A stretch of DNA of 64,000 nt from Clostridium sp. 1001271st1 H5 (GTDB taxonomy: Bacteria > Bacillota > Clostridia > Lachnospirales > Lachnospiraceae), in assembly GCF_005845215.1 (NCBI RefSeq), contig NZ_SPHO01000011.1, positions 62,001-126,000 on the forward strand, given 5' to 3'. The notes beneath the pieces are model-generated. The model saw only the letters and a program-made list of their open reading frames with translations, did not search any database and was not told the DNA's origin. Numbering within the stretch: position 1 is the stretch's first letter; every line of letters starts with the position of its first letter. Shown piece by piece: positions 11 to 50,643 of the stretch. Both the position numbers and the translations under genes were made by a program.

Positions 11-97
11 CCGGACGAACTCCATTAGAGTTCGAAGCGTTGTTGTAGTTCGTATTGCCATTGTTGTTCACATTAGCGAAATTAGCCGAAGAAACGA
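11..97 (-). repeat. DGR template repeat (TR)
   Basis: Non-coding template of a diversity-generating retroelement. Read on the minus strand it is rich in AAC/AAT triplets; in the frame of the targets it would encode ANVNNNGNTNYNNASNSN, the Asn-rich signature of DGR templates. By hand alignment it matches 1180-1266 (VR1) and 50109-50192 (VR2). It contains 25 template-strand adenines; 10 differ in VR1 and 14 in VR2, while only one non-adenine position differs (VR1, C to T, silent). It lies directly downstream of the Avd gene, the usual place for a TR. The reverse transcriptase expected next to it would be beyond base 1. Confidence 0.93.
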
Positions 98-112
98 CGC
101 ATAAATTAGACA

Positions 113-598
113 TTACCCTCTTAACTGTGACTTGATTCGGTTATCTCGTTGACGCCACTTCTTTATCAATCCGATTTCTCGGTCGATAGCTTTAACATAA
201 CGACTGTAGAGATTAACGTCCACTTCGAATATCTCAACGATTCGTTGCAGCTCTTTTAAAAGCTGCTCGCAGTTTACTATGGCTGTATTCTGATAATCTC
301 TTCTTTGTTCATACTCGTGTAGCGTAGTTGGATAGATAGAGTTTGCTGCTCGAACATTACTGGTCAGCATAGAAGCCAACTGATCAATACGATTTTTGTA
401 GTTCAGCATCAAATATCTATACCTTGAAAAATCTTCTGTCGCATCCTTTCCGTGAGCATATCTTACTCGGACAAGCTGATCCAAGTCTTTCACTCCGAAA
501 CTACGCTGCATGAAATCAATCAACATATCATGTAATTCGATGGAATATGTAATTGCTTCGAATTTAGATTCAGTCCGATCACTCACAAGAACACTCAT
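113..598 (-). CDS. avd: DGR accessory variability determinant (Avd-like)
   Basis: 161 residues, nearly all helical by composition, with charged/aromatic heptads as in the four-helix-bundle Avd family, a partner of the DGR reverse transcriptase that binds the template RNA. The call rests mainly on context: the stop lies 15 nt before the TR, the gene is downstream of VR1, and size and basicity fit. Its ATG overlaps the TGA of the XkdX-like gene (ATGA, 595-598), so translation is probably coupled to the tail operon. It is longer than a minimal Avd (about 120-130 aa). Confidence 0.8.
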   Translation of the reverse strand: MSVLVSDRTESKFEAITYSIELHDMLIDFMQRSFGVKDLDQLVRVRYAHGKDATEDFSRYRYLMLNYKNRIDQLASMLTSNVRAANSIYPTTLHEYEQRRDYQNTAIVNCEQLLKELQRIVEIFEVDVNLYSRYVKAIDREIGLIKKWRQRDNRIKSQLRG

Positions 599-738
599 GC
601 ATAATCCTTGTCTGTGATCTCTTTGAATTCTTCTTCCGTAATCCAGTTCTTTTTCACTGCATTCCGAACCCGTACTTCATTCCACATACCCAAATTGTAG
701 TAGCGTTTTACCTTGTCGTAATTCTTGCTATGTTCCAT
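595..738 (-). CDS. XkdX family small tail protein
   Basis: 47 residues beginning MEHSKNYDKVKRYYNLGMW. A small aromatic/charged N-terminus is followed by a stretch with NAVKKNWITEEEFKEITDKDY, the conserved 'AV..g.IT.eef.eITG' pattern of XkdX proteins found at the end of tail/baseplate operons in Firmicutes phages. AGGAGG is placed well upstream of the ATG at 736-738. The TGA overlaps the start of the Avd gene by 4 nt. Role in the tail is unknown in the family. Confidence 0.82.
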   Translation of the reverse strand: MEHSKNYDKVKRYYNLGMWNEVRVRNAVKKNWITEEEFKEITDKDYA

Positions 739-753
739 AACTGTTTCCTCCTT

Positions 754-1062
754 TTATAGTTCGATTTCAGACATCATGGCAACATATTCGATATCTGACT
801 GCATTTTAACAAAGGCCAGCTCTGTTTCTGGAACCTCCCGCAAGACAAACCAATACTTGTCATTGACCTTGGTAATCTGGACAAGTTCCATGTTCATGTG
901 AACTTCATCCTTTTCTCCATCGTTGATTGTTACGATCGAACAATTTCCGTCAAAAACGGACTCATTGATTTCCGATGAAGATATAAAGTTATTACCGTTC
1001 AACCTCAAATTATCAAGAACAGTTTCATCGGACAGAGTAATCTTATAAATCTTATCCTCCAT
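754..1062 (-). CDS. phage tail-module protein of unknown function
   Basis: 102 residues, acidic, with no recognised motif. It lies between the DGR-diversified tail protein and the XkdX-like gene, a position usually held by a short conserved tail-operon protein. The sequence looks like a small beta-rich domain (ITLSDETVLDNLRLNGN, then a KYWFVLREV strand). RBS AAAGGTG precedes the ATG. Function is not known. Confidence 0.7.
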   Translation of the reverse strand: MEDKIYKITLSDETVLDNLRLNGNNFISSSEINESVFDGNCSIVTINDGEKDEVHMNMELVQITKVNDKYWFVLREVPETELAFVKMQSDIEYVAMMSEIEL

Positions 1063-1137
1063 TTTGATTCACACCTTTCATTTAGATTTTTCTTTTTTTA
1101 TAGCACAGATTGTTGTCACCTGTGTACGGTTTTCGTG

Positions 1138-1152
1138 GGGGCACAGGGCCCC
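1138..1152 (-). other. GGGGC/GCCCC hairpin downstream of VR1
   Basis: Perfect 5-bp inverted repeat GGGGC-ACAGG-GCCCC just after the stop of the tail protein. 27 nt separate it from the end of the TR-VR homology. The same 15 bases occur at the same distance from VR2 (50067-50081). In the Bordetella phage DGR a hairpin/cruciform 3' of the VR promotes retrohoming; this is the likely counterpart. Confidence 0.75.
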
Positions 1153-1162
1153 TGGATTCAGA

Positions 1163-2134
1163 CTAACCAATAGCGAAGACCGGACGAACTCCATAAGAGT
1201 TCGAAGCGTAGTAGTAGTTCGTAATACCATAGCCGTACACAAAAGCGAAATTAGCCGAAGAAACGATATCTCTGAGCCAGAACGTTGCACGATTTGAGAT
1301 CATCTTCGGAACCACCGTAAACAAAGCAAGCTGCGTCTTTCCGATCGTATAACGGTTCACAACGACCGTACCATCTCCTGCCGGAGTAAAGACAAGGCTT
1401 CCGTACATCATAATTTCATTCGGAAGTTCCAGCGTAGAATCAAACCAAGCACCAGCCGAAGGATATCCATTCGAAACGGCGTTTGTCAGATATTCACGGT
1501 GGGTGAGAATCAAGTCACCAAAGGCACTCGCCGCCAACGTTTTCGCCTGCGCCAGATTCTTGGTGTACATTTTAGAACCAACATAGCCGCCGGTTGTGAT
1601 GTTCGTCTCATTCATCTGTGCGTTGTAAAGAGGTTTATCCGGCATGATAACCAGATGGGGCGTGGTGAAAGCCGTATCGCCGCAATTATACCAGTAATCA
1701 AAATCTACGATTCTCCATGTATAGCTGCCGATAGACCAGTAATCTCCAAGGAAAAATCCTTTGAAGGTTCCGTTCTTGATATTTGCCTTCTGGTCGTCTG
1801 TAATAACGCTCCCCAGATTTTTTCCTCTGTAAATCATGCGGCGCTGCTCCTTCGGAACAAAAGCGTCCAGAATTGCAAAGAGTGCATCGTCCGCACCAAT
1901 CGCTTTGTTCCCTGCTGCGGTGCCAATCAATAACTTATCATCCGCAGACAACGTATTGATTTGCGTAAGTTCCGACAGATTGACGCCGGAAATGAAATCC
2001 TGAGAACTGGTAAGCCCAATCAAGGATTTAATAAAATCAGTCACCATAATTGTTTTGGTTCCATTGTTACCATCAATCAAGACGATGTTGCTTTCATCTA
2101 GTGTCTGGACCTTCTGATAATCCGTAATTTTCAT
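1163..2134 (-). CDS. DGR-diversified tail/receptor-binding protein (target 1)
   Basis: 323 residues. The N-terminal 100 residues are probably a tail-attachment segment. The C-terminal 200 residues contain aromatic motifs (GDYWSIGSYTWRIVDFDYW, near the end FWLRD and YGVRPVFAIG) of the C-type-lectin-like fold used by DGR targets (DUF6273/Mtd-like). VR1 forms the last 30 residues. Placed after the baseplate genes and before XkdX/Avd, it is the best candidate for the adhesin that contacts the host. The receptor is unknown. Start ATG with GGAGG upstream. Confidence 0.85.
   Translation of the reverse strand: MKITDYQKVQTLDESNIVLIDGNNGTKTIMVTDFIKSLIGLTSSQDFISGVNLSELTQINTLSADDKLLIGTAAGNKAIGADDALFAILDAFVPKEQRRMIYRGKNLGSVITDDQKANIKNGTFKGFFLGDYWSIGSYTWRIVDFDYWYNCGDTAFTTPHLVIMPDKPLYNAQMNETNITTGGYVGSKMYTKNLAQAKTLAASAFGDLILTHREYLTNAVSNGYPSAGAWFDSTLELPNEIMMYGSLVFTPAGDGTVVVNRYTIGKTQLALFTVVPKMISNRATFWLRDIVSSANFAFVYGYGITNYYYASNSYGVRPVFAIG
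1180..1266 (-). repeat. DGR variable repeat VR1 (C-terminus of tail protein)
   Basis: Aligns base for base with TR 11-97. It differs at 11 positions, 10 of them template adenines. Eight of eleven template Asn codons are changed (F, Y, G, Y, I, Y, Y, Y) while the scaffold codons SSA, AS, GVRP are kept. It encodes about residues 290-318 of the 323-residue tail protein, the ligand-facing end of a C-type-lectin-like fold in known DGR targets. Confidence 0.93.
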
Positions 2135-2151
2135 CTCGATATGTCCTCCTT

Positions 2152-3282
2152 TTACCTAATACAAAAAATAACGCGGCCATCAATTGGCTGTCCGTTGCTA
2201 TCCAGAATTAAGGAGCTGGAATATGCACGCGCCACAATCGGGTCCACGTTACTATCAATGATAGTTCCTTCTGATGAATCGAGAAGATTATCGTAATTCT
2301 CGTATCCATTGTCATAAAGATTGTTGTATACGGTGAATTCCGTCCGAATCCCCTCTACAATTTCTTCAAGAATCGATGTCCTTTTTTGTAACTCTAATAT
2401 CTGGTTTGCCAGATTTGCTTCTACATCCTTCGAAAGAGTATCCTTCAACTGCTGGAACCACTCATCAAACAATGCCTGAGCATTTTCTCTCCATGCAGCC
2501 ATTTCAGATGTATTATTGTTTGTGTACTCGTTAAACCAGGTCGCCCATAACTGTTTCCAGTAAGCACTTGTTTCCTGCATATCTGCCGTTTGAGCAGCAT
2601 ACCAGTCGTTCCATTGTTTTTCCCATGCCAGATAAGATTTCTGGATTTCTTCCGTCTGGGTGCTGAACCATTTTGACCACTGGTCTTTCCAGAAAGCATT
2701 TGTCGCTTCCATATCAGATGTCTCTTTTTCATAAAATGCATCCCACTGGTCTTTCCACTGAGCAACCAAGGCGTCAATGGACATTTTCTCCAGTGGAGCT
2801 GTTACGAACGGACACTCCGATGTACCAACAGCATTGGTGATATTCGCCTGACGGATGGATGTAACGCCAGAATTTACCCGAATATAGGCCAATGGATACT
2901 GCCAACGGTCGGTCGTGCTAATCATTGTTGGTTTCGCTGGATTAGTAGCTGGCGTACCTTTGATGATTTTAATCGCATTTGCACGAACAGATTCACGAGC
3001 ATCTACTTCCAAAACAACCACATCAATCCGATTTAGAATAACTTCCGATTGTGGTACAGTCAAAGGAAGCAAGGCGTCATTCAACGTCCATGTATGATTA
3101 AACCAAGCTCGACCAATTCCGACATTCACCATCATGCCAGTAGACTCTTTCACCATCATAGCAGTCCCAACATGCTGCAAAATGCCGTCACGTATGATCC
3201 CGTCAAAAATGCTTGACATTTGAATGGCATCGTATCTCCGATCTTTATTCTTTGAGTTATAGAACCCATAAGTGACACTCAT
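2152..3282 (-). CDS. baseplate/tail fibre structural protein with Trp-rich repeats
   Basis: 376 residues. The N-terminus (MSVTYGFYNSKNKDRRYD) resembles baseplate upper-protein-like proteins of Firmicutes siphophages. Around residues 165-290 are four or five imperfect repeats of 25-30 residues with the pattern W..QW..W......d (for example FWKDQWSKWFSTQ, AWEKQWNDWYAAQ, YWKQLWATWFNEY), probably a long helical or coiled-coil stalk. The C-terminal region is beta-like and may carry the adjacent adhesin. It lies between the Gp37-like gene and DGR target 1. Confidence 0.7.
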   Translation of the reverse strand: MSVTYGFYNSKNKDRRYDAIQMSSIFDGIIRDGILQHVGTAMMVKESTGMMVNVGIGRAWFNHTWTLNDALLPLTVPQSEVILNRIDVVVLEVDARESVRANAIKIIKGTPATNPAKPTMISTTDRWQYPLAYIRVNSGVTSIRQANITNAVGTSECPFVTAPLEKMSIDALVAQWKDQWDAFYEKETSDMEATNAFWKDQWSKWFSTQTEEIQKSYLAWEKQWNDWYAAQTADMQETSAYWKQLWATWFNEYTNNNTSEMAAWRENAQALFDEWFQQLKDTLSKDVEANLANQILELQKRTSILEEIVEGIRTEFTVYNNLYDNGYENYDNLLDSSEGTIIDSNVDPIVARAYSSSLILDSNGQPIDGRVIFCIR

Positions 3283-3302
3283 TTTTCTTCACCCCTTTCC
3301 TG

Positions 3303-8200: not shown

Positions 8201-11200
8201 TGCTCAACCAGAGCCGAAAGCACACTGTCAACCAAGACAAATAGTCCGTCCACGACTGCTGGAACAGCCGTAACCAAAGCCTCAACTGCTGCAAGTACCA
8301 ATACTGTAAATGCCTCGGCAATAGCCGGTCCCCCATTTGCAATTACTCCTGCGAGAGAAAGGATTCCTTCGCCTATCGCTTCAAACAGCAATGGAATCAG
8401 ACTGAGAATACTGGATACCGCCACTACAAGGGATGCCGCTCCCGCTGCTCCGGATACTGCCAGAGCAGAAAGTCCAGTGGAAAATGCGAGAATACCAGCA
8501 CCTGCGGCCAGACATCCTACTCCCAATACGGCAATAGCGGCTGAAAGTCCTAAAATAGCCGGAGTCAATGGTCCTAATGCCACTCCTGCAACACCGAGAA
8601 CGGTGAAAGAGCCGGCCAGTGCCACCAACCCTTTGGCGATGCTCTCCCAAGACATATTCCCCAATGACTTGAGAACCGGGGTAAATATCGCCAATGCAGC
8701 GGACACGGTAAGAACCGCTGCCGCACCCGGAAGTGCAGTTTTCATTGCGTTGAGTGCCACAACAAGAATGGTCATGGAACCTGCAAGGGTTACCAGTCCT
8801 CTGGCAATTTCATCCCAAGACATTCCGCCCATATTTCGAACTGCTTCGCCAATAATGAGTAATGCTGCACCGACCTCCACCATTCCAGTCGCTTTCGACA
8901 TCATTCCTTTTGGAAGTAGATTCATCGCAACCGTTACAGCAGCCATAGAACCAGCCATTGTGGTAAGACCTCGTCCAATCTCCCCCCATGTCAAGTTCCC
9001 CATCTTTTCCACTGCTTCCCCAAACACGAGCATAGCCGCCCCAAGAATTGTCATTGCTGTAGCGGTAGAAATCACATGCTTCGCATTGGCTGTCACTTTG
9101 GTGAATACCGCCAGTTCGGTAAGAACCACCGCAACCGCAGATAATCCCTTCAAAAGAGTGGAAATATCCAAAGCACCAAATGCTCCAACCGCATTCGCCA
9201 GAATATTGATGGACGCCGCAAGAAGAACCAAACCAGTTCCTTTCAGAACACCCATCCCATCCAAATCCGTAGCTTTCAGGAACAACGCCAGTTCGGTGCA
9301 AAGAACGCCGACTCCAATCAGACCTTTCGCCAAAGAGCCTACATCCAACGCTCCCAAATCTTCAACTGCTCCTACAAGCACTCGAATCGCTGCTGCAAAT
9401 ACTACTAAACCAGCAGAACCTTTTATCAACCCCTTCGATGTTTTGGAAAGAGCTGTCGCAGATGCTACCAGAATAGCGGATAACCCGGCAACGCCAACCA
9501 ATCCTTTCAGAAGCTCATCCCAATCCAAACCGGATAATTTCTGAACTGCGCCTGCAAGAATAAGAACAGCGGTAGACATCCCAATCATCGCAATGGTCAA
9601 CTGTCCCATTCCTTTGATTGCCGCTCCGTTCATTATCTTTTCAAAGATGGCCATTGAACCAAGCAGTTCGACGAACAGAACACTCAAAGCTCCCAAGGAC
9701 GCATTCAGCTTTTCGGAATCAACCAGGGATAACGCCACAATCGCTGCGGTCAGGATTGCCATAGCTCCGGCAATCTTCAGAAGAGTGCCAGCTTTCAGAC
9801 TTGACTGCCATGCTTCAAGACTCCCCTTAACTCCATCCAAAATATCTTTGAATGAACCAAGAATTCCGCCGCCGTTTTCGGTGATTTCCGATAGAGAGTC
9901 AATAAACTTTTTCACCCCGATTAGAATTGCAGAAAACAATCCGGTATTGATTAAATCCAAAATTGGGTCAAAACTTGCGGTATCAAATGCTGTGAGAATT
10001 GCTTCCCCAAGGTTTCCAAACGCATTTGCGACAATGGAACCCAGCTTCAATAAAACAGGCGCTGCCTTCTCGACAATCCCAATAATTCCTTCAAATGCCT
10101 TCTTTACCAGTTCGCCTAATTTTACAAACGGTTCAAACCGAGTCTGTACCTTATCCGCAAAATTATCGAGACCACTGGTATCAACATTCGCAAACTCGCT
10201 GAACGCATCGGCAACTGTTTTTACAAAAGTCTTTATTCCATCCGCAATTGGTTTCAGGAAATTCCCGATTCCTTCGATAGCTTTGTTAAAGGCATCGGAC
10301 GATTTAATAGCTTCATCGATACTAACAATGAAATCTCCAATGCTGGCCGTAAACCCGAGAATTCCATCTCCGGCCGGAGCCACATAACCAATCAGATCTG
10401 CAAATCCACCAACAAGCGCTTTGACACCTTGAAGTCCAATATCAAATAAAGCGAATACCCCTTTGAATGTTCTCTTCAGGTTATTCGCTGTTTCTTCGCC
10501 CATTTTGAATTTTTCGGTAAGTTCCTGTAATCCTACAGTGAGATTGTAAAGCTGTTCTCCGGTCATCGGCGGAAAGACTTCTCTAAACGCTTCTTTAACT
10601 GGCTTTATAATGCTTAAAACACCCTCGAAAGCATTCCTTACCGCTTCAATCAACGCAGTTCGTCCGCCAAGATCTTTCCAATCCTGCAACATCTTATTTC
10701 TCGCTTCGGCAGAAGCATTTACCATGTTGCCAAGGGCGTTGCTAACCTCAGTTAAAAGTTCTTTTGCCTCTTCGAAATCACCAATGATGATTTCCCAACT
10801 CTGAGTCCAACCAGACTGAACCGATTCTTTCAGGGTGTCCCATAACTGCGTGAATGTCTTTACCTTGGTAGCTGCATCCAATGCTGTCTGAGCCAGTTTT
10901 GTAATCTCTTTAGCTTGTTCTTCGGTATATCCCTGAGCGATAAGATCTGCTTCTGAGTAAGCTCCAGACAACTGTGTCAGAGTTTCGGTCAACACCTCTG
11001 TTGTCAGCCATCCACCTTCGGTCAGAGAAGCTCTGAATGAACCATACTGTTCAATCATCGCATCCATGTTGGTTCCGAAATGTTCTGCGGTTCGAGTTAA
11101 GGCGTCTTGAAATAGCTGACCGCCCATTCCCGCATTTACAACGGAATTCCAGTCTTGCAAACTAACCTTGCCCGCTGCAATCGCCTGCGAAAGCTGATAC

Positions 11201-18856: not shown

Positions 18857-20196
18857 TAGGTCTCCTCCTCATCATCCGAAAGATAGCTTCCTATAATTTC
18901 ATCAATCTCCTTTTCAAGACCGTCAAGCAGCTCGTTTATGATACTGTCATAATCGGCTCCGGCATCACTTTCATTGGATTCGACATCAGAACTACCGTTT
19001 GAAGGATCAGATTTGGCCTCACTGATATTGCTGTTCTTCAGCGCATCAGCTTTTGGATCATCAGACGGTTTCATACCAATAATCTGGCGAATTTCGTTTG
19101 ATGTCATAATCTCATTTCTTGTGAATTTGTCAGCAATTTCTGACAGATCAGCTACTGGTACAAGTTTGAAGGGGTCACGGAAGAACAGAATCGATTGCTT
19201 TTGAGACCTGGCTGTTTTAGTAAGGAACTTACGTTTCATTTCGTCAACGATTGCTGAAATGATCGGCTCAATAGTACGGTTGTAGTAATTCAGCATGGTC
19301 TTCTCGTCTGCGGAACCATCCAATATACTCTGAGTGATACCTAACTGGCTGTATAGCATACTCGTTAGATATTCAATCTGCTTCATCAGATTATTTTCCA
19401 CAGAACGATTCAACTGTGTGATTCGCTCCGTACCATCGGTATACGCAATACCATATTTAGAACCGGCCAACTGACGCTCAATCTCGACACGCCTCTTCTC
19501 AGCCTGTTGACGCCTTGCTTCTGTTTTTATCACATAGGGAAGCTGGATAATTAAATCGAGTTTTCCTGAACTGCTCTGCTCATCAACAACGTCCAATAAA
19601 TTCAGTTTTCTTATCAAACGCTGCATCGTTGAGTTTGGCTCATTCATCACCGCATAAAGCGGATTTTCAATAATGGCGACCGTATCTTTTGGAACTACAA
19701 TGTCTTCCTTTAATCCAGTCCGCTCATTATAAACTCTTGCTTTGATATGATTCGGAAACCATTCCAGAATCTTCCCGGTTCGCATTGACTCGATTTTATA
19801 GGAGCCTGTAGTGTCAGGGTCATCATCCGTATCCACCGGGATAATCGCCACACATCCCTCATCGAGCATTGACAAAACCACATCCTGAAGGAAAGCCCGC
19901 CCAGTCTGGTCAATGTTGGCTGATAAATTCAGACAATCATTTAGCCCCGAAGAAATTTTTTCAAGAAATCTTTCGGAGTCGTCCAGACGGACATGTTGAA
20001 TGTTAATTGAAGCGCAATCCAATGCGATTCGATTATATACAGAGGTAACGATAGATCTTTCATTTCCTCTTGTGAGTCTTGGACGGTCGGGCCTGTACGA
20101 ATATCCAACCCCTATGTCCCGATAGAAACCTGTTGGGTCTCTATTTAAAAAAGCATTCCAGGCATGTTTAATCCTGGAACCGATTGAAACTTCCAT
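18856..20196 (-). CDS. portal protein
   Basis: 446 residues. SIVTSVYNRIALDCASINIQ near the N-terminus and the C-terminal LGITQSILDGSADEKTMLNY followed by RTIEPIISAIVDEMKRK are the hallmarks of HK97/SPP1-like portal proteins, the dodecameric DNA gate. Located directly after the large terminase as usual. The C-terminal 70 residues are Ser/Asp/Glu-rich. Confidence 0.93.
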   Translation of the reverse strand: MEVSIGSRIKHAWNAFLNRDPTGFYRDIGVGYSYRPDRPRLTRGNERSIVTSVYNRIALDCASINIQHVRLDDSERFLEKISSGLNDCLNLSANIDQTGRAFLQDVVLSMLDEGCVAIIPVDTDDDPDTTGSYKIESMRTGKILEWFPNHIKARVYNERTGLKEDIVVPKDTVAIIENPLYAVMNEPNSTMQRLIRKLNLLDVVDEQSSSGKLDLIIQLPYVIKTEARRQQAEKRRVEIERQLAGSKYGIAYTDGTERITQLNRSVENNLMKQIEYLTSMLYSQLGITQSILDGSADEKTMLNYYNRTIEPIISAIVDEMKRKFLTKTARSQKQSILFFRDPFKLVPVADLSEIADKFTRNEIMTSNEIRQIIGMKPSDDPKADALKNSNISEAKSDPSNGSSDVESNESDAGADYDSIINELLDGLEKEIDEIIGSYLSDDEEET

Positions 20197-24145: not shown

Positions 24146-26893
24146 TCACTCCTTTCCATTCAGATACTTCGACACAGTAGAACTGGAAACACCCAAAGCC
24201 GCTGCTATCTCAGCAGTGCTATAGCCAGAAGCGTTCAGCGCCGCAATACGATTTACTTTGGCAGAACTAAGGGTTGTTGTTGCACGAGGGGTAGCTCTCT
24301 GTCTGACTGTATCTATGTTTGTACTGTTGAGAATCTGGGTAAGCTTGTTCTCGCTGATAGCGCCGGCTTGAATCGCTTCCCATTCACGATCTGTAATCTC
24401 GACAGGGGTTCTCTTGGCACCAACAGCAGTACGGGCCGCAGTAAGGGCCTGTTGATTAGCCTTCTTGATTTCAGCCTTTGTCATATCAGGGTTGTCTATC
24501 TTCTTAGCGGCCACAATAGAATTCGCCATGGTCTGTGCCTGACGCTCGCGGGGGGCGTTCTTTAAAGCTACATTAAGCTTAGCCATAAGAGAATCAACCT
24601 CTGTCTGGTAGGTCTGTTTTGCTGAAGCAGAGTAGGCTATCTTTCCAGTATTAACCATCTCCCTGCGGGCCTGATTAGCCAGAGACTTCATGGTATTTGC
24701 ATAGTCTGCATACGCCTCTTCCTGTGGTGTCCCAGATGAGAGAGTGCGAGCGTCTCTGGTTTCTGCCATCTTGGCACTCTTTTGAGTCCGCACCTGGGTC
24801 TTTCCGTTCTTATCTATGTACTCCTCCCTGACGCTCTTCCAGCTTTGCTCTCCGGTTTCCTTGTCAATGATCGGGCTTCCTTTTCTTTTCAACACAGAAG
24901 TCTCAGACTTGGCACGAGAAATCAGCGTAGAAGCTCCGCCATAACCATCATCGTCATCGTGAGCCTGGTACTTCTTCTTCAAAGCCGTAATACCATTGTC
25001 CTGCTCACTCTTCTTGTAGTCTAGCTTATGCTTCTCTGCATCGATGACGACCATACTGTGACGTACAGCTCTTGCAAGCTCATCTTGAGTAGCACCTTTC
25101 AAAGTCATATCAGTAATCAAGTTTGAAATCTTACCCATTTCTGTCTGGGTATTTTTCATAATCTTAATCTTCTGACCGCTGCTGTTACAATAATCGTCAC
25201 CTTTCTTAACGGTCCCATAAGACATCTTAGGATCGAATCCTTCCAACCCCTTTAATTGTGGAGTAGAAGTAATCTTCACCCTACTATTAGAAGAATTACA
25301 AGGAATCACCATGACAGTATCGCCATCGAAGTCAGCTCCGGAAAGACGGTCAGCAACCTTTTTGTTAATGCCAATAGCGTCTGTCGGTGTATTCCCAAGA
25401 ACTCTTCTTCCTTCTGGCTGCTTATTATTAACAGTTAAGATTGGAATCTCAAAAGTTCCACCATGCGGATACCGCACAAGAGCTACTGTTTCTCCATTCT
25501 TGTAGTTCGGAGCATAGACCTCATTGTCTTTGATAGATGTCAATGGAAGAATAACTTGATACTTCTGTCTGGGAAGAGCGGCTGCCTGTAAATGAACAGC
25601 GGCTGCATCGCAGTCATCAGCAAAAGATTTCAAAAGAACCTTTTTCACTGTTGGATTCGTAAGAGAACAAATCTCATCAAATTCAGACTGCTTGTCTGCG
25701 GCCGCTAAATTCAACTGCTTCTTTATCAAAGTTCTACTCTGTTTCGACAGAAACTGAGATGGAAGCTTGTCTGCCCATTCGCCCCAATCCCCTTCTTCTG
25801 CTCGCTTGTTGATAAGGGAAAGCTGTTTCTTCCCATTTTTATCATAGTAGTAACTCTGACCTCCTCTTTCAGTAGTGGGGTTATCCGGGTCATTAACTCC
25901 CTCTTTAATTAAAGAACCGAACGGGTTATCCGGGTCATCTTTGATTGGTTTCAGAACATCCATTTTAGGTGTCCCTTTTTTCTTATTGGTGTTGAACATA
26001 ACATCCACACCATCAGGAAGGTCATCTGAATAAACCGCCATCCCTTTGATGTAGTGTGTCTTGTCAACTAAGATGCGAACCTGAGCATAATGGGATTCTC
26101 CAAGAGACAGGTCGTCAACACCTCTTCGAATTTCCACAACACCATCCTTCAATTCGCCGCCATCTTCCGAATACCGAATCTGCAACCGCTTTGAATCCAT
26201 GCTTTTGGGATAAACAAATTTGGGATCAAAAGATTCCCCATCATCATGAGAGACATAATCTTTCAGAGAATTGATATTCTCAAAATCGTAAATCTCTTTA
26301 TGCTCTGTTCCAGGAGGACAAATCACACGAAGCGTTGTTTTCTTCCCAGGATTTGTTACCTGATCCACTCGTCCGCCGTAAACAGGATAATCCTCCATCT
26401 CCAGCATATAGAGTGCTTCATTCAGTTTCTCCTTGGAAATTCCAAGTTCACGTTCCACACCGGCACCAACATCAATCATGCCTTTTTCGTCAATTTGCTT
26501 TTTGATAATTTCAGCAGTTGTCTTAGCTTGGTTCATACGAACCTCAGAATTTTCATTCAAAAGCGAACGAACAGAAGAGTCGTTTGCGAAGCCCATTTCT
26601 TTCGCAATTTCATTTAAGCTCAAACCATCTTCTCGAAGAGATTTTGCTCTCGCCACATCCAGCGCACGACGTTCATCTTTTGCTAACGATTTCTGCGTAC
26701 GGTATTGAGTGGTGGTTAAACCCATGGCTTTTGCAATTTCGGTATCACTCATACCCAGACTTTTCAGTTCATCCACTCGACTCAGAAAATCTCCACTATG
26801 CTGATACGGATTATCACCAGATCCCCACGGATAACGACCGGAACGGCGGGGCATTCCATAATGCATCAAAATTTCTTCTGCAATCGGATTCAT
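24146..26893 (-). CDS. large HTH protein with RNA-polymerase-like DFDGD (double-psi beta-barrel) core
   Basis: 915 residues. N-terminus MNPIAEEILMHYGMPRRSGR then YPWGSG, a head-protein-like tag. Two HTH-like segments (SDTEIAKAMGLTTTQYR, about 50-66; SLNEIAKEMGFANDSSVRSL, about 91-110). Core about 430-560: VALVRYPHGGTFEIPILTV (about 470) followed by DRLSGADFDGDTVMVIP (about 515-531). R-P-x...I-x-V then SGxDxDGD is the arrangement of the catalytic barrel of QDE-1/YonO-like single-chain RNA polymerases; the three Asp would bind Mg. C-terminal HTH (STAEIAAALGVSSSTVSKYL). A phage RNA polymerase is inferred, not shown. Confidence 0.6.
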   Translation of the reverse strand: MNPIAEEILMHYGMPRRSGRYPWGSGDNPYQHSGDFLSRVDELKSLGMSDTEIAKAMGLTTTQYRTQKSLAKDERRALDVARAKSLREDGLSLNEIAKEMGFANDSSVRSLLNENSEVRMNQAKTTAEIIKKQIDEKGMIDVGAGVERELGISKEKLNEALYMLEMEDYPVYGGRVDQVTNPGKKTTLRVICPPGTEHKEIYDFENINSLKDYVSHDDGESFDPKFVYPKSMDSKRLQIRYSEDGGELKDGVVEIRRGVDDLSLGESHYAQVRILVDKTHYIKGMAVYSDDLPDGVDVMFNTNKKKGTPKMDVLKPIKDDPDNPFGSLIKEGVNDPDNPTTERGGQSYYYDKNGKKQLSLINKRAEEGDWGEWADKLPSQFLSKQSRTLIKKQLNLAAADKQSEFDEICSLTNPTVKKVLLKSFADDCDAAAVHLQAAALPRQKYQVILPLTSIKDNEVYAPNYKNGETVALVRYPHGGTFEIPILTVNNKQPEGRRVLGNTPTDAIGINKKVADRLSGADFDGDTVMVIPCNSSNSRVKITSTPQLKGLEGFDPKMSYGTVKKGDDYCNSSGQKIKIMKNTQTEMGKISNLITDMTLKGATQDELARAVRHSMVVIDAEKHKLDYKKSEQDNGITALKKKYQAHDDDDGYGGASTLISRAKSETSVLKRKGSPIIDKETGEQSWKSVREEYIDKNGKTQVRTQKSAKMAETRDARTLSSGTPQEEAYADYANTMKSLANQARREMVNTGKIAYSASAKQTYQTEVDSLMAKLNVALKNAPRERQAQTMANSIVAAKKIDNPDMTKAEIKKANQQALTAARTAVGAKRTPVEITDREWEAIQAGAISENKLTQILNSTNIDTVRQRATPRATTTLSSAKVNRIAALNASGYSTAEIAAALGVSSSTVSKYLNGKE

Positions 26894-33429: not shown

Positions 33430-34497
33430 CTATTCCGATTCATACTGAAGCTCCTCCTCGCAACGCAGACAATCATTATTAGCGGCTCCGAAACAGCCAT
33501 GGCAATGCTTCCTCATATCATACTCAGCCTTGGTTATTTCAACAAATTCGTCATTTTCTTCTTTAAAGAAGCGATTAAGCTCCACTGTACAGTCTTCTGG
33601 TGTAATTGTATAGAAAATTCCAACTGTGTCGTAATCTCCATTTTCCGGATCAACTAAAAAATCTTCGCAATAGACCTTAAATGGTTTACTTGCCGGAAAA
33701 TATGGCATGGTAATAGGGAACTTCTCTTCCATTACCCGATTGATCAAGCTACTATGATAGGAATCATGTGGATTGTTCATATTGATTCCACAGTATCTAT
33801 CTACATCGTGATACTTTACGGTTCCATCAGAATATACATATTTGAAAAGAGAACTCATTCGCTTACACTGATAGTTTACAATTTCACCGCGATATCCCGA
33901 AAGGTCCGTAATATCACTCCAAACATCCTCTGTATCCTCGATCGATGTAAGTGGCTTTCCGTCAATTAGGCGATTCAGAATATATTTAGTCATACCGATA
34001 CTGAAACCGCTATGGCCGTCCTCGGACAGACTGTGATAGGCTTTCAGAGCACTTTCGTAGCAGACGCAACCATAATCCCACTCCCTTTCTTTTGTTCCGG
34101 AGGCTTTTCTTTCGTTCTCACAAGCAATCTCTACCTCTTTTTCAGCCCATGTCTGCGTATTGGATTTTTCCCGGCAGGATGACAAAGGAATATTCCGGTC
34201 ATCTATATACTCATTTGCAAAAATCTTTCTGGTATCAGAACCAAAGTTCTCGATGATTTCCGGAAGATTCTCATTGACCGCATCAAACACCAGATTTCTC
34301 TCCTTACACCACTCAACAGCTTTTTGAAGCATGTCTTCCACGCGGCAGGTCCACAGAATCAACTTATCTCCATCCTTTTTCCGATTACGAAGATACTCTA
34401 TCAGTTCTTCGTTCGGCGCTCCGATCCCTGGCCAGTTGTTCTCACATAAAGTTCCATCGAAATCTACTGCAATAATTTTCACTGATTTAAGATTCAT
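33430..34497 (-). CDS. HAD-like hydrolase fused to a phage domain
   Basis: 355 residues. Residues 1-100 are a HAD-like phosphatase: IIAVDFDGTLCENNWPGIG (motif I), LILWTCRVEDML (motif II) and EYIDDRN (acidic motif). Residues 140-355 are a separate domain with YGCVCYESALKAYHSLSEDG and C-terminal CHGCFGAANNDCLRCEEE Cys pairs. Possibly nucleotide or nucleic-acid 3'-phosphate processing; the substrate is unknown. Confidence 0.8.
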   Translation of the reverse strand: MNLKSVKIIAVDFDGTLCENNWPGIGAPNEELIEYLRNRKKDGDKLILWTCRVEDMLQKAVEWCKERNLVFDAVNENLPEIIENFGSDTRKIFANEYIDDRNIPLSSCREKSNTQTWAEKEVEIACENERKASGTKEREWDYGCVCYESALKAYHSLSEDGHSGFSIGMTKYILNRLIDGKPLTSIEDTEDVWSDITDLSGYRGEIVNYQCKRMSSLFKYVYSDGTVKYHDVDRYCGINMNNPHDSYHSSLINRVMEEKFPITMPYFPASKPFKVYCEDFLVDPENGDYDTVGIFYTITPEDCTVELNRFFKEENDEFVEITKAEYDMRKHCHGCFGAANNDCLRCEEELQYESE

Positions 34498-34600: not shown

Positions 34601-35365
34601 TTACTCAAGCCATTTGTTGTCGATATAATAGAAACTGTAGACACAGACTCCAATTAAGACCATCCAAATAATCCAGAATATCCACATTGCAAAATCGGTT
34701 TCTAAGTATTCTACGGTTTCATCAATCTTCATATTTTCATAAAATGGTGAGTTATCGGCTATTGTTTTATCAGCCAGTTCTGTAAATATGGTTCCGGTAA
34801 AGTTTAAACCAACTCCATAATACTTATAACGAATGTGGCTGGATTCTTTAACAGTGTCTATATACTCCTTTCCCGGCAGGTCGATTTTACTAACTGAAAA
34901 AACGTGATTTAAAAATGATATTTCATCACATATCCGTTCCTCACTACCAGCATAATCCCATGTCCAATAGGTTTCCGTTGTATAGTAAGTATGGGTTTTT
35001 CCATTCGTAGTTGTTGTATGTGCAACCTGGCGAGTATGCATTGTATATCGTTCTTTCACTTTTTCAATATAAATGTATTCTCCACCAATTTCAGGATATG
35101 TAACTGTATCGACCGCTTTCAAATCGCCATATACAAAAGCGTTCCCGGCATTAGTCCTCATTCCGTACTCAAACAGTTCCTGCGATTCTATTTTTATCGC
35201 CTTGTTGTATTTTTCATTTTTATCCAATTGATAATCCGAAATTTTTCCAGCAATAAGGACTCCAATCAGAAGCATAATAGCGACAATCGATACACTTACC
35301 AGTATTTCCCGTTTCGTAATCTCGAAATTCCCGAAATCAAAACTTCTACGCTTGCGTCCTCTCAT
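34601..35365 (-). CDS. two-helix membrane protein next to LemA
   Basis: 254 residues. Basic N-terminus, membrane helix about 19-40 (ILVSVSIVAIMLLIGVLIAG), extracytoplasmic domain of about 180 residues with Thr/Tyr-rich HTTTTNGKTHTYYTTETYW, second helix at the C-terminus (WIFWIIWMVLIGVCVYSFYY). Follows LemA by 5 nt; the pair may form an envelope complex. Confidence 0.75.
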   Translation of the reverse strand: MRGRKRRSFDFGNFEITKREILVSVSIVAIMLLIGVLIAGKISDYQLDKNEKYNKAIKIESQELFEYGMRTNAGNAFVYGDLKAVDTVTYPEIGGEYIYIEKVKERYTMHTRQVAHTTTTNGKTHTYYTTETYWTWDYAGSEERICDEISFLNHVFSVSKIDLPGKEYIDTVKESSHIRYKYYGVGLNFTGTIFTELADKTIADNSPFYENMKIDETVEYLETDFAMWIFWIIWMVLIGVCVYSFYYIDNKWLE

Positions 35366-38394: not shown

Positions 38395-39282
38395 TCATAT
38401 ACTGTGAAATAATCTTCTCATAGTCCACACATCTGAAAAATATATAGGTGTAAACCAGTAATTCTTCAAATCATCAGCCATAGTCATTGGTTTGGTCAAA
38501 GAATTTCCAACTTTAAAATATCCAGCAATTCCTAGAAGAGAAAGTTGAATATAGCACATCAAAGCTGGAACTTCTTCAATGTCTTGTCCGGAAACTAATA
38601 AATGGTTTTGATAATTATAATTTTCTTTTTCTAATTGCTTTCGTGCTTCGTGAATAGCAGCAATCAAGTTGGCTCCCGCTCCGCAACATGGATCGTTGAT
38701 GGTAATATAGCCATCTTTCCTTACTTTCTCAGTTACATCCGTAATGGTGATTTTTGCCATAAGCCGACACATGTCATAAGGAGTAAATATTTGTTTCAAC
38801 TCATCGTAGCCAAGATTTAAGCTCATGTACATCTTTCCTAAAAAATCCTGCTCCGGATTCATTTCTAAAGACATGACCAGATTTGCAAACAACTGTGGAA
38901 AAAGTTCCTGTTTTGACTTACTGTAATGGCGAATGATATCCAAGTATCGTTTCTCTCGCTTATCATATTGAGATTTGTCCACAGAATTTGATATAGAACA
39001 AGCCGACATAACAATAAAGTCTTTCCAAATATCCCACGGTCTGTTTTTTTCTGAAACAAGTTGACGAAAGATGTTCATAAATTCTTTCTCATATCTGTCG
39101 GGTTTGAAAGTGGGAAGATTTTTCATTTTCGGCTTCGGTGATAAGCTTACTTGATGTTCCTCTTTATGAACTACAAAGTCGTGCTTCTCTGATATTTTCT
39201 TTGGTTTTTCGACCTTGGAAATAGAAGCATTGATCTTCGGTTTCGCTGTGGTTCGCTTCTTTTTCCGATTCCAAAATGCCAT
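38395..39282 (-). CDS. N6-adenine DNA methyltransferase-like protein
   Basis: 295 residues. Basic Lys-rich N-terminus (1-60), helical region, then the HsdM-like core: TPYDMCRLMAKI, motif I NDPCCGAGANLIAAI (SAM binding), SGQDIEEVPALMCYIQLSLL. The catalytic NPPY motif expected after this is not seen; the protein ends in a truncated TPIYFSDVWTM segment. This short form is frequent in Firmicutes phages; activity is uncertain. Confidence 0.8.
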   Translation of the reverse strand: MAFWNRKKKRTTAKPKINASISKVEKPKKISEKHDFVVHKEEHQVSLSPKPKMKNLPTFKPDRYEKEFMNIFRQLVSEKNRPWDIWKDFIVMSACSISNSVDKSQYDKREKRYLDIIRHYSKSKQELFPQLFANLVMSLEMNPEQDFLGKMYMSLNLGYDELKQIFTPYDMCRLMAKITITDVTEKVRKDGYITINDPCCGAGANLIAAIHEARKQLEKENYNYQNHLLVSGQDIEEVPALMCYIQLSLLGIAGYFKVGNSLTKPMTMADDLKNYWFTPIYFSDVWTMRRLFHSI

Positions 39283-46456: not shown

Positions 46457-46469
46457 AAATTCCTCCCAA

Positions 46470-46513: not shown

Positions 46514-46526
46514 ATAAATTTATCTC

Positions 46527-47486
46527 TCACATCAAATCCCAGATGTTCCCATCCACATTAAAATCCAAAAGGATTGCCTGGTCGAATCCATTGACATAAT
46601 CCGAATAACTCAGATTATCAGAATACAGACCGAAATCAATGTAATTATCTCCTTTAGAATTTTCCGGATTATAAACCCAACCAACAATCTGGCCGGCTTT
46701 TGTTCTCGGAAGTCCAAGCATCTCATAGACTTCATTCAGAAATACGCGCTTCTTTGCTTTCAACAAGTCGTTTGCATAACGCTCTTGGGCTTTGATGAAC
46801 ATCAGATTATATTCATTGTTGCTTTCCCAATGAGGATTAAGAATGGAATTTCCATCCTCATCCTGCGTGTACTTTTCAAAGAATCTGGCATAACCGCTGA
46901 TATCCCCCGGACTTACCACAAAACCATTCTTCTTAACTTTCTTCTCTTTTCCAGTCTCTTCATCAATAACCGTTTCATCAAACTTTTTGGCTTTGAGATT
47001 ATATTTCAGTTCACGGTCAACCTCTTCGCCAAATCGTTCGATCACACGGCTGCGATACTCTTTAAATCCTTTATCAATAGCTGCATAAGCCGCACTTAGA
47101 GCTACATTTCTCTTACGAAGAATGTTATTAGATGCCAAAATACTGGTGATTGACAATGCACCGAGTATGACGGAAGGCCCATACAGTTTGGCAAATTTCA
47201 TACCGGTCTGAACATAAACAATCGCCAAATCTTTTTGGGCATCCTCGCTGGAATACCGCTCCTTCACGGATTCGTCTGCTTCACATTTATGAATTGTTTC
47301 GACATCTTCTTTTGTCTTGTCCAGAATTTCACCCACTTTTGTCGTTGCTTTACAAGCCATTACCGCGCTTGTAACCACACCGATAACTCCAGCCACAACG
47401 AGAATCTCCGGACTATGCTTCTTTAACTGGAAACTGGTTTTACTAAGAAAACCATTCATGCTCTTTACAATCTCTGCTTTTTTCAT
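46527..47486 (-). CDS. DUF6353-like phage membrane protein, paralog A
   Basis: 319 residues. N-terminal SFQLKKHSPEILVVAGVIGV then SAVMACKATTK is shared with 48992-49765 and 51221-52000. Two membrane helices (about 25-45 and 105-130), central helical region with IDKGFKEYRSRVIERFGEEV, and C-terminal 'VGWVYNPEN...IDFGLY' region. Likely an inner-membrane protein; role unknown. Confidence 0.78.
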   Translation of the reverse strand: MKKAEIVKSMNGFLSKTSFQLKKHSPEILVVAGVIGVVTSAVMACKATTKVGEILDKTKEDVETIHKCEADESVKERYSSEDAQKDLAIVYVQTGMKFAKLYGPSVILGALSITSILASNNILRKRNVALSAAYAAIDKGFKEYRSRVIERFGEEVDRELKYNLKAKKFDETVIDEETGKEKKVKKNGFVVSPGDISGYARFFEKYTQDEDGNSILNPHWESNNEYNLMFIKAQERYANDLLKAKKRVFLNEVYEMLGLPRTKAGQIVGWVYNPENSKGDNYIDFGLYSDNLSYSDYVNGFDQAILLDFNVDGNIWDLM

Positions 47487-47488
47487 GA

Positions 47489-47749: not shown

Positions 47750-47763
47750 CTTGAATCCCTCCT

Positions 47764-48366: not shown

Positions 48367-48572
48367 TAAGTTGTCTCCTTTCCGCTCACCAAACTGATCT
48401 TTCCAGGCAATATAATCTTTGTACCCGGAAGTCGGTTGTTTTTCTTTTTAAACTGATAAGTAAGGTTTGACCTTGCTTTCTTTTCTGAAACTGCCCGTGT
48501 GGAAGCAATCCAGCGATTTGCAACACAGTTGTCAAATTCCATAACTGGGCCATCATACGAATACATGTTCAT
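48366..48572 (-). CDS. hypothetical phage protein
   Basis: 68 residues from MNMYSYDGPVMEFDNCVANR, with a basic core ARSNLTYQFKKKNNRLPGTK. GGAGG eight nt before the ATG at 48572 decides the start. Short conserved protein of phage early regions. Confidence 0.75.
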   Translation of the reverse strand: MNMYSYDGPVMEFDNCVANRWIASTRAVSEKKARSNLTYQFKKKNNRLPGTKIILPGKISLVSGKETT

Positions 48573-48594
48573 AAATTTCACCTCCGGATAAAAG

Positions 48595-48634
48595 AAGAAA
48601 GGGAAAGCACCTTGTTACAGGTACTCTCCCTCGT
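48595..48634 (-). terminator. rho-independent terminator
   Basis: AGGGA(GA)GTACCT-GTAACA-AGGTGC(TT)TCCCT stem with TTCTTCTTTT after it on the minus strand, downstream of 48655-48921. Confidence 0.75.
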
Positions 48635-48654
48635 GTTGAAACACATTTTTTCGT

Positions 48655-48921
48655 TTAGGCTTCTTCGGAATCCTCTTTTTCATTCTCAATGATTGGTTCT
48701 TCGGGTTCATCCCACTCAGCATCGATAATCTGCTGCTCCTTCTGAGCTTTGATTTTGGCAATCATCGGCTTACCCACATACCTGTAGATTACAACACCTG
48801 CAAGTACGGCTAAACCGATACCGGCCGCAACCTTAAACCCCTTACCAGAACTCGCTTTAACGATTTCCTCTGTGGCTGTTTCCATAACCTCTTCGTTGTT
48901 CATGATTTCATTGGTTTCCAT
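48655..48921 (-). CDS. small membrane protein
   Basis: 88 residues: acidic N-terminus, one membrane helix (GFKVAAGIGLAVLAGVVIYR), acidic C-terminus. Single-gene unit with promoter element 48965-48989 before it and terminator after it. Confidence 0.75.
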   Translation of the reverse strand: METNEIMNNEEVMETATEEIVKASSGKGFKVAAGIGLAVLAGVVIYRYVGKPMIAKIKAQKEQQIIDAEWDEPEEPIIENEKEDSEEA

Positions 48922-48964
48922 GTTTATTCTCCTTTCAATTTTTGAAAATGTGTGGTTCTTCTTC

Positions 48965-48989
48965 CATTAAAGCCACTGTTTTTTTCGCG
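48965..48989 (-). promoter_or_regulatory. 25-nt conserved promoter-like element, copy 2
   Basis: CGC-N6-AACA-N8-AATG on the minus strand (the last tetranucleotide deviates from TRTG). Upstream of the 48655-48921 gene. Confidence 0.55.
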
Positions 48990-48991
48990 CG

Positions 48992-49765
48992 TCACATCAG
49001 CTCACTGAAATTGTATCTCGGAGCAATACTGTAATCAATCACCAGGCAGGGAGTTCCATCGCTGGTCAATTGAGAACTAAATGATAGATCAATATACCCA
49101 TTATCAATATTCCATCCCAACTCATCGCCGATTTTGATATTATCCAGACCGACTTCGTAGTAGAAATCATTTAAGGATACATACATCTCATCGCGCATCC
49201 GACGATTTAATTCACATTCCGCTTTCTTAATTTTGTCGATATCGCCTTTAAAATATCTGCCAGAAATCGCGTCATAGCAGAGCGTATTTCCCTTTTCTGT
49301 AATGATTATCTCTCTTGTTACCACTGGATTTTTCTCGATTTTATCCTTTGCAATAGCATCTTTCACAGTTTCGTGCTTCTTCTCTCCGAACATCTCAACG
49401 ACTTTTCCCTGATAGTCCTTGAGAGCGGATTCCGATAAGGTATATGCCGTTGCGAGTGCTGCATTCCGTTTAGCGTTTACTGAGCTGGCTCCAATTAAAC
49501 ATGCAATGGAGAGGGTTCCCGTAATCACTGCCGGAATATAACAGAACCAAGTTGTTTTTACCACATCTGCGACTTCAAGCTCCTCGGCTCCAATCTCCTC
49601 TTTTCTATCTTCAATGAGAATCAGCGCTTTCGGCGTTGCCCGGACCGCCATGACAGTCGTTGTGATCATACCAGCAATACCAATTCCGGTAAGAATTTCA
49701 GGGCTGTGCTTCGCCATGGATGTTCGAACTGACGACAAAACTTTTGATATGTTCGATTTCTTCAT
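48992..49765 (-). CDS. DUF6353-like phage membrane protein, paralog B
   Basis: 257 residues. MAKHSPEILTGIGIAGMITT then VMAVRATPKALILI; second helix about 75-95; AKRNAALATAYTLSESALKD; C-terminal LGWNIDNGYIDLSFSS. Immediately downstream of DGR target 2, sharing one nucleotide of stop/start, so both are probably made together. Confidence 0.78.
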   Translation of the reverse strand: MKKSNISKVLSSVRTSMAKHSPEILTGIGIAGMITTTVMAVRATPKALILIEDRKEEIGAEELEVADVVKTTWFCYIPAVITGTLSIACLIGASSVNAKRNAALATAYTLSESALKDYQGKVVEMFGEKKHETVKDAIAKDKIEKNPVVTREIIITEKGNTLCYDAISGRYFKGDIDKIKKAECELNRRMRDEMYVSLNDFYYEVGLDNIKIGDELGWNIDNGYIDLSFSSQLTSDGTPCLVIDYSIAPRYNFSELM

Positions 49766-50643
49766 TATCTCATTCCTCCAAATATCACACTGAATATCGT
49801 TTTAACCATGTCAAGAGCCTGATTCTCAGTAAAGCCAGCACGAACAAAGCTGTCCATAATTACTTTGGTTTCCGCTGTTGCTTTATCGTACTGCTTATAT
49901 TTTTCTAACTTCTCAATTTCCTTTCTCAGAGTATCAATCTCGTTTTCTTTATTCCAAATTTCCATCTTTAACACTGCTTCTTTTGTAACCATTACATCAT
50001 TCTGACAATAATGCAGAATGTCTTCTGAACCAGCATCAAAGCCCCAAGGATAACGGCCAGATCTACGGGGCACAGGGCCCCTAGATTCCTGCTTAACCAA
50101 CCAGAATTCCGGACGAACCCCATGAGAGTACGAAGCGCCGTTGCAGTACGTAGTGCCATAGTCGTACACACGAGCGAAATAAGCCGAAGAAAACTCCTCT
50201 TTTGTAGCATTTCTCAGCCATCCCCACGTAAGCTGATCTTCAAAACAAGCAATTCGATTCTTGCACTCTTTCATCAAAGGAAGCTGTTCATCGCTATCTG
50301 GTTCCAGATTCTTGTTATCCCATTCGTCCTCATGACCAACAATCTGTCCAACGGTTGGAATAGTAAGTCCGTAAATCTTATCACGCAACTCTTCTGGGAA
50401 CGCCATAAACAGAACTGTATCCATCCACTTCTTCAGATCGGACTTTTCAAAACCACCTTTGTTTGTAGAGCAGTTATTCATCGGCCGGCAGGTAACATAT
50501 TCGTCAAATATAAACATGACGCCCTCGTCCGTAACCTTGTGAGCGGTCGCGGTAAACTCTCCAAGCTCTGCCAGCGGAATGACTATCTGATCTCCTACCT
50601 GAATGTTGGCTGTTTCGATTTCCTGTTTTCTTAATACCTTCAT
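49765..50643 (-). CDS. second DGR target: C-type-lectin-like protein in the early region
   Basis: 292 residues. About 1-185: DUF6273-like fold (GGFEKSDLKKWMDTVLFMAF, TWGWLRNATKEEFSSAYFAR, GVRPEFWLV). VR2 encodes about 151-178. After the VR the protein continues: ESRGPVPRRSGRYPWG (shared with the 915-residue protein's N-terminus), then DILHYCQNDVMVTKEAVLKM, like an Exo III motif, and a coiled C-terminus. It has no signal peptide and lies between membrane-protein genes, not tail genes. The target may be intracellular or virion-packaged; unknown. Confidence 0.85.
   Translation of the reverse strand: MKVLRKQEIETANIQVGDQIVIPLAELGEFTATAHKVTDEGVMFIFDEYVTCRPMNNCSTNKGGFEKSDLKKWMDTVLFMAFPEELRDKIYGLTIPTVGQIVGHEDEWDNKNLEPDSDEQLPLMKECKNRIACFEDQLTWGWLRNATKEEFSSAYFARVYDYGTTYCNGASYSHGVRPEFWLVKQESRGPVPRRSGRYPWGFDAGSEDILHYCQNDVMVTKEAVLKMEIWNKENEIDTLRKEIEKLEKYKQYDKATAETKVIMDSFVRAGFTENQALDMVKTIFSVIFGGMR
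50067..50081 (-). other. GGGGC/GCCCC hairpin downstream of VR2
   Basis: Same 15-nt sequence as at 1138-1152 and again separated by 27 nt from the VR end. Here it lies inside the open reading frame and is translated (about GPVP), which shows that the DNA/RNA structure has been kept although it costs protein sequence. Confidence 0.75.
50109..50192 (-). repeat. DGR variable repeat VR2 (remote)
   Basis: Aligned with TR 11-94; differs at 14 positions, all template adenines. Ten of eleven template Asn codons are changed (Y, R, Y, D, Y, T, Y, G, Y, H) and one Tyr became Cys; no non-adenine position differs. This is the cleanest evidence of mutagenic retrohoming in the window. Confidence 0.93.

Follow-up and report, generated by a model that had tools for sequence, protein, structure and literature searches.

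We analysed a stretch of 64,000 nucleotides (hereafter the window) from Clostridium sp. 1001271st1 H5, contig NZ_SPHO01000011.1, positions 62,001 to 126,000, which is G000:C2:62001-126000 within a 6.5-Mb genome (G, C and L numbers are our labels for genomes, contigs and loci). The window holds a prophage with a diversity-generating retroelement (DGR), in which one template repeat (TR) matches variable repeats (VRs) in two genes, called here target 1 and target 2. The parts of the element and the genes beside them are listed below; negative positions lie left of the window.

-1295 to -99 (outside the window; G000:C2:60705-61901, L004 10705-11901), minus strand: reverse transcriptase (RT), 398 aa, from its open reading frame (ORF) and profile match
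11..97, minus strand: TR, 87 nt, with 25 adenines and 11 AAY codons, from sequence comparison
113..598, minus strand: Avd homologue, 161 aa, matching PHROG 3206 'Avd protein of DGR' (E 9.6e-20)
754-1062, minus strand: small gene between target 1 and Avd
1138..1152, minus strand: hairpin 27 nt 3′ of VR1, stem GGGGC/GCCCC, loop CCTGT, intergenic
1163..2134, minus strand: target 1, 323 aa, at the end of the tail module, after the tape measure, Dit and minor tail protein genes
1180..1266, minus strand: VR1, at the 3′ end of target 1, from its match to the TR
48992..49765, minus strand: DUF6353 gene directly downstream of target 2, matching PF19880 (E 2e-87), product with two hydrophobic stretches
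49765..50643, minus strand: target 2, 292 aa, with a DUF6273/C-type-lectin-like domain (residues 1-187) and a C-terminal extension
50067..50081, minus strand: hairpin 27 nt 3′ of VR2, with the VR1 hairpin sequence, inside the ORF and read as RGPVPR
50109..50192, minus strand: VR2, internal to the target 2 gene, from its match to the TR

The original prediction, made from the window alone, placed an RT gene left of base 1, and it lies there, 109 nt from the TR. In profile searches the protein matched PF00078 (E 6e-17) and PHROG 1423 (E 6e-63), and its sequence contains YMDD and IGxxxSQ, the latter of which we take to be a DGR-RT motif. The Avd-like gene expected next to the TR was confirmed. 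The minus-strand order is target 1, small gene, Avd, TR, RT, a small PHROG 4105 protein and holin.

VR1 differs from the TR at 11 positions, 10 of which are TR adenines, the eleventh being a silent C>T change (GGC>GGT). VR2 differs at 14 of 84 shared positions, all of them adenines, so that 24 of the 25 pooled mismatches fall on template adenines (Fisher test of A against non-A, p = 7e-6 for VR1 and 1e-9 for VR2). Eight of the eleven AAY codons in the TR are altered in VR1 and ten in VR2. All of these counts reproduce those first reported. A chance match is excluded, because 61 (VR1) and 59 (VR2) of the 62 non-A positions match the TR, against 32 for the next best site on either strand of the window. 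It had also been proposed to align the TR with every VR-like site; blastn over the whole genome (E ≤ 0.001) returned the TR, VR1 and VR2 as the sole matches. We consider it highly probable that this is a two-target DGR, in which a single TR and a single RT serve to rewrite two genes, one of them in the non-structural early region, as the original prediction had it. This assessment draws on the anatomy of the sequence, on recent, adenine-specific divergence at both VRs and on the conservation of the arrangement in relatives.

Pairs of near-identical prophages provide a natural test. The prophage of [Clostridium] citroniae WAL-17108 is nearly the same as ours and has an identical TR. Between window positions -99 and 58380 (58.5 kb) the two differ at 49 positions; 31 of these lie within the two VRs (174 bp), 30 of the 31 at template adenines, leaving 18 differences in the 58,306 bp outside the VRs. 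VR1 contributes 18 differences, 17 at TR adenines, with none at the other 2,679 aligned positions, and VR2 contributes 13, all at TR adenines, with a single difference in 4.4 kb of flanking sequence. This concentration of differences indicates that both targets were rewritten recently. Since the bacterial sequence right of attR (the right prophage end, below) is about 8% diverged, with the first difference at 58395, the hosts belong to separate strains or species and have come to share this slightly mosaic phage recently. Near-identity extends left to window -400, within the RT gene; at about -401, about 1.6 kb without a difference gives way to 7-9% divergence, with 220 differences over the 2.5 kb to the left prophage end, attL. 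The sequences indicate an exchange at this point that took in the lysis genes and the greater part of the RT and left the TR identical.

Two further pairs say the same for early targets alone. VR2 of G001 and G002 differs by 14 substitutions, all at TR adenines, and a 3-nt gap, against 1 or 2 differences (in two comparisons) over about 5.4 kb outside it. Across 11,907 bp, the 15 differences between L144 and L145 are all confined to the VR of one early target, 14 of them at adenines of their own TR. For VR1, L014 and L016 differ at 13 positions, 12 of them adenines, with flanks 99% identical. Five of the 17 VR1 pairs listed have 13-19 differences, two have one (at an adenine) and ten have none; several of these ten are probably the same phage. 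The lack of VR1 differences in several near-identical pairs implies that rewriting is not constant. L149/L150 and L136/L007 have adenine-only VR differences (15/15, 11/11 and 14/14, judged by the own TR), and are weaker evidence because of 544 and 219 flank differences. The pair L139/L137 was left out, as the aligned stretch does not cover the VR.

To survey relatives, we collected 47 virus-contig loci with an RT 72-94% identical to ours and scanned 45 of them for VR1 and TR; 42 had both in the same arrangement. A whole-record search for target 2 covered 26 virus records and our own genome, out of 50 loci fetched, and found homologues at E 2e-26 or better in 14 of the 26 records, two of which have two early targets; weaker matches were the VR stretch common with target 1, or the TR. 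L035, L036 and L049 may be the same prophage. The genome search reached 20 genomes through 22 of 26 loci, two loci being common to one genome; G009 and a second Cuneatibacter prophage (G030 C5), with identical spacings, are probably the same prophage. Compared with their own TRs, the VR1s of 12 virus records have changed at 193 of 288 adenines and 16 of 756 other positions, and 14 early-target VRs at 214 of 335 adenines and 42 of 883 others, 34 of these 42 being in the first four bases, at the repeat edge. Over all relatives' VRs pooled, 407 of 623 adenines have changed against 58 of 1639 other positions. These pooled counts exclude G001 and G003, which are without a TR (G003 was compared with the TR of our prophage; G001 has the 3-nt gap). 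The expectation that VR differences in relatives would fall on template adenines was thus borne out in both the prophage pairs and the pooled virus records.

A hairpin follows nearly every VR examined. It has a G+C-rich stem of 5-6 bp and a 5-nt CNNGT loop (CTTGT, CCTGT, CTCGT or CTAGT), and lies 23-29 nt past 25 of 25 VR1s and 16 of 17 early VRs, and none of 25 TRs has it in that form (counted in 24 of the 42 loci with VR1 and TR, plus our own). Its stem occurs as GGGGC/GCCCC (or one base longer), CCGCCC/GGGCGG and CGCCC/GGGCG, swaps that imply that the pairing is kept, not the letters. DNA folding gave z -3.2 after VR2, with 0 of 200 shuffles as good, and z -1.7 after VR1. Phage DGR hairpins have been described with a 7-10 bp stem and a 4-nt GRNA loop (available part of PMC3240598), a form that the hairpins found here do not have. 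Freedom from coding constraint is given as the likely reason for VRs at gene ends in the part of PMC8144416 available to us. The hairpin inside target 2 suggests, by analogy, that in our clade a retrohoming hairpin has turned coding, letting the VR sit inside a longer protein; a retrohoming signal could then be carried within coding sequence.

By its position, target 1 is likely a tail adhesin or receptor-binding protein. The two targets had been called unrelated, which holds for the rest of their length but not for the VR-bearing ends; both of these are DUF6273/C-type-lectin-like, so the VRs lie in a C-type-lectin-like domain, as in a typical DGR. Profile searches matched target 2 to PHROGs of unknown function, none structural; PHROG 21980, PHROG 2152 and DUF6353 were all matched and carry no assigned function. 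No family with a defence or exclusion role was matched for target 2 or DUF6353 in Pfam and PHROG (PADLOC was not searched). A Foldseek search of target 2 against the PDB gave no match at E ≤ 0.001 (best 9qa6, at 0.025), and tblastn against 50,697 phage records gave one match. Many homologues have about 180-190 aa and consist of the bare VR domain without an evident virion-attachment part. The extension of our target 2 is predicted to form a long helix, in a first structure model (9 sequences) that was poor (pLDDT 53) and used for this helix only. In a search of the window and 40 loci, the extension was found in target 2 genes of our own clade and in L152, where two targets stand in tandem and the second has it; L148 gave a 15-residue match at E 0.12. 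As to its origin by fusion with a neighbour, residues 185-292 were compared with 11 neighbouring proteins and this was rejected (best E 1.6).

The target 2 and DUF6353 genes overlap by one base at 49765. DUF6353 was tested in 26 genome loci, 11 of 14 virus loci and two phages, alignment starts being taken as gene starts. A DUF6353 match begins no more than 81 nt from the end of a target-2-type gene, or overlaps that end, in 21 of the 26 genome loci, and the two stand side by side likewise in 8 of the 11 virus loci. The gene order around target 2 is largely kept in 22 of the 26 genome loci, whose hosts include Hungatella hathewayi, C. citroniae, Cuneatibacter caecimuris and [Ruminococcus] torques; in 22 target 2 is among small early genes; 19 of these loci extend as far as the DNA polymerase gene, and in all of them target 2 lies upstream of it. 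Each of the three DUF6353 proteins in the window has two hydrophobic stretches (19-residue means 1.6-2.2), and DUF6353 is a probable membrane protein. No paper naming DUF6353 turned up in our literature search. The three genes, diverged from each other, lie on the minus strand of the early region (46527-47486, 48992-49765 and 51221-52063), and two of them are near PHROG 10740 genes (50677-50982 and 52023-52352). The early region also has an N6-adenine methylase-like gene (38395-39282, minus strand; PF02384, E 3e-9), about 10 kb from target 2.

The candidate ends of the prophage are as follows.

56926..58239, plus strand: tyrosine integrase gene, just before the attR candidate
58381..58395, no strand: candidate attR core, 15 bp, inside the 3′ end of a GGGtGRT gene
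G000:C2:59061 (window about -2939), no strand: candidate attL copy of the 15-bp repeat, from a repeat match

From 58395 onward the match to the C. citroniae prophage falls off. A 14-bp copy of the repeat at C2:57994 is an alternative left end, and with the candidate ends the prophage measures about 61-62 kb. No tRNA was found in the stretch holding attL; a doubtful tRNA call without a full anticodon lies at 52394-52465. VR2 is 8.2 kb from attR, and attL is 3 to 4 kb from the TR, so that once the phage is circular the two are separated by 11 to 12 kb that span attP. The statement that the targets are 49 kb apart at opposite ends is therefore true of the prophage order and not of the circular phage, where on these coordinates the targets would be neighbours across attP that integration puts at opposite ends. 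In virus records with the early target following the RT (n = 8), the spacing is 7 to 13 kb, and an integrase lies between RT and early target, on the opposite strand, in 8 of 10 loci, with no match in the other two (in 3 of the 8 the target is beyond the locus and was placed by record coordinates). The prophage order, with a spacing of 48 to 52 kb, was seen in 11 distinct cases (our own, G002, G008, G009, G017, G027, G028, G029, G030 C10, G037 and G044). The spacing is 58 kb in G038, the nearest TR is 111 kb from the early VRs in G039, and early VRs and TR are on different contigs in some genomes, such as G031 and G032.

The target pair had been called unusual, which is not supported: other gut phages have been reported with a small or distal second target (available parts of PMC11792537 and PMC12629997). 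Roseburia phage Shimadzu (LR596903) has, like ours, one TR (19579-19720), with VR1 in a tail fibre gene. Its VR2 (33478-33601) is 13.9 kb away in orf43, a distant target 2 homologue (27% identity over 148 columns) located among genes for DNA methyltransferase and for recombination. Unlike ours, Shimadzu is a tail-sheath phage with an RT 29% identical, its VR is at the gene's 3′ end and no DUF6353 is beside orf43. Its double target, a tail and an unknown protein, is in print, as cited in the available part of PMC11792537. Acutalibacter phage Fontainebleau (ON453893) has a TR at 35101-35203, an RT 43% identical to ours, VR1 (34380-34482) in a DUF6273-like protein (below the Pfam cut-off) after the tail genes, and VR2 (9796-9898) in a 189-aa target 2 homologue. 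This homologue has DNA polymerase I on one side and on the other a coiled-coil-like gene, after which comes a helicase. Unlike ours, this target 2 ends at the VR and has no DUF6353 match beside it; the words 'DGR' and 'retroelement' were not found in the portion of the Fontainebleau paper available (PMC10197239).

Other systems were compared by their descriptions. In Faecalibacterium prophages Lelie and CP11 one TR serves two VRs, one in a large target and one in a small one, and each target has a DUF6273 domain that carries the VR at its C-terminus (PMC11792537, available part). Four inducible gut prophages are described with a second VR that is distant from the RT and close to genes for counter-defence, for instance a DNA methyltransferase (PMC12629997, available part). 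The metagenomic phages nd4 and nd12 resemble ours in having one TR and two DUF6273/C-type-lectin-like targets, and differ in that one VR is in the 5′ part of a tentaclin gene and both targets are within the DGR cassette (as far as the available text of PMC10743442 goes). Bordetella phage BPP-1, whose DGR presumably has one target, also has an RT, Avd, TR, a VR in a virion-module gene and a hairpin 3′ of the VR. The BPP-1 hairpin has a 4-nt GRNA loop and a longer stem (available part of PMC3240598), against 5-6 bp and CNNGT here. What looks new is a family of phages and prophages, mostly of Lachnospiraceae where the host is named and some with three targets, in which the early target is usually directly upstream of a DUF6353 gene, and, in our clade, an early gene that runs through the hairpin into a coiled-coil tail.

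The DGR belongs to a temperate phage of Lachnospiraceae-like bacteria. In the mechanism we propose, the RT would copy the TR transcript, making errors at adenines, and the resulting cDNA would replace the VR in either of the two genes, guided by the VR 3′ end and the hairpin 27 nt beyond, both of which the two genes have in common. Retrohoming itself we infer by analogy. Target 1 would be the presumed receptor-binding protein of the tail module, and target 2 a C-type-lectin-like (DUF6273) early-region protein encoded just before DUF6353. VR2 could instead be a fossil, an old VR duplicate that diverged once and is no longer rewritten; its gene continues beyond the hairpin, which is unusual for a retrohoming signal, and one relative has a broken copy. 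Against this stand the 13 adenine differences from C. citroniae with one in the 4.4-kb flank, the 14 adenines and 3-nt gap of a second pair (G001/G002) with one or two, and a third pair (L144/L145) whose 15 differences are all inside the early-target VR. These alignments largely refute a fossil VR2, which we regard as very improbable. We give equally little credence to VR diversity from recombination among phages in place of mutagenic copying of the local TR. The phages are mosaic, as the divergence jump at -401 illustrates, but the differences are confined to the 87-nt repeat and template adenines (30/31 against C. citroniae), whereas recombination is expected to carry flanking markers and not to pick adenines.

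For target 2 itself, the reading that we lean towards, without yet holding it probable, is suggested by gene context: it may be a variable binder in the cytoplasm, whose partner at the membrane would be DUF6353 and whose object would be some changeable factor of the host or of a competing phage. A wider version is more tentative: target 2 and DUF6353 might form an intracellular module for variable recognition, by which the phage quickly changes what it recognises inside the cell, be it a host factor, part of a defence system or a rival phage. The same template would meanwhile adjust adsorption, and in our clade the hairpin would have turned coding. Target 2 might, on the other hand, be a second virion protein, a decoration or fibre tip, in which case the DGR would vary surface binding only. 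Its C-type-lectin-like fold would suit this, as would the long extension helix predicted in our clade, which could form oligomers, and viral DGR targets in several clades are mostly tail proteins (available part of PMC8144416). The position among small early genes upstream of DNA polymerase, the homologue adjoining DNA polymerase I in Fontainebleau, the PHROG matches, none structural, and the many short homologues without an evident attachment part all argue the other way, and we think a virion role unlikely. Target 2 could also be made in the lysogen as variable immunity or exclusion against other phages. Such a role would fit the coupling to a DUF6353 gene, whose product has two hydrophobic stretches, and the open target 2 gene kept by prophages of many hosts; yet the Pfam and PHROG searches matched no family with such a role, our literature search turned up no paper naming DUF6353, and we judge it quite unlikely.

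Several observations count against a variable binder that works with DUF6353, or against active rewriting of two targets. The link to DUF6353 is absent in 4 of the 26 genome loci and one of the 11 virus loci, the four genome loci being the least similar ones. It is also absent in Fontainebleau and Shimadzu, two-target phages without a DUF6353 match beside the target, which implies that the pair belongs to our family and is not needed for a second target. The role of the hairpin is by analogy only, because its form differs from the GRNA-loop phage hairpins; other, A+T-rich inverted repeats lie downstream of 13 of 25 TRs, and the stretch after our own TR, taken as a control, folds differently and about as well as that after VR1 (z -1.8). 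Over the whole prophage, ours and that of C. citroniae differ at 269 positions, 220 of them left of -400, and the module is, from its sequence, mosaic with a break inside the RT gene. VR1 is without any difference in some near-identical relatives. In Hungatella hathewayi WAL-18680 (G028, L133 genome) the RT is matched at residues 233-397 only; this remnant adjoins the TR (G028:C1:3297985-3298597), both VRs are present, and the RT is probably truncated. In G018 (L124) the target 2 gene is split in two frames and the hairpin mispaired, so that this early target appears to have decayed. All of the evidence for rewriting is comparison of genome sequences.

Switching between host receptors is the usual explanation for phage DGRs. 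An early target that is conserved and was recently rewritten, that belongs to one protein family in the phages compared and that usually lies directly upstream of one probable membrane-protein gene, suggests a need for rapid variation in something else as well, which is probably not on the virion. With sequenced, named host strains and natural near-identical prophage pairs, the question is directly testable.

Two other genes of the stretch deserve mention. A 915-aa protein (24146-26893, minus strand) matches PHROG 4291, labelled RNA-dependent RNA polymerase (E 0), and is probably a YonO-like, single-subunit phage RNA polymerase. Beyond the prophage, a 609-aa protein (62087-63916, minus strand) has a sortase domain (E 2e-11) and a weak Wzy-like match.

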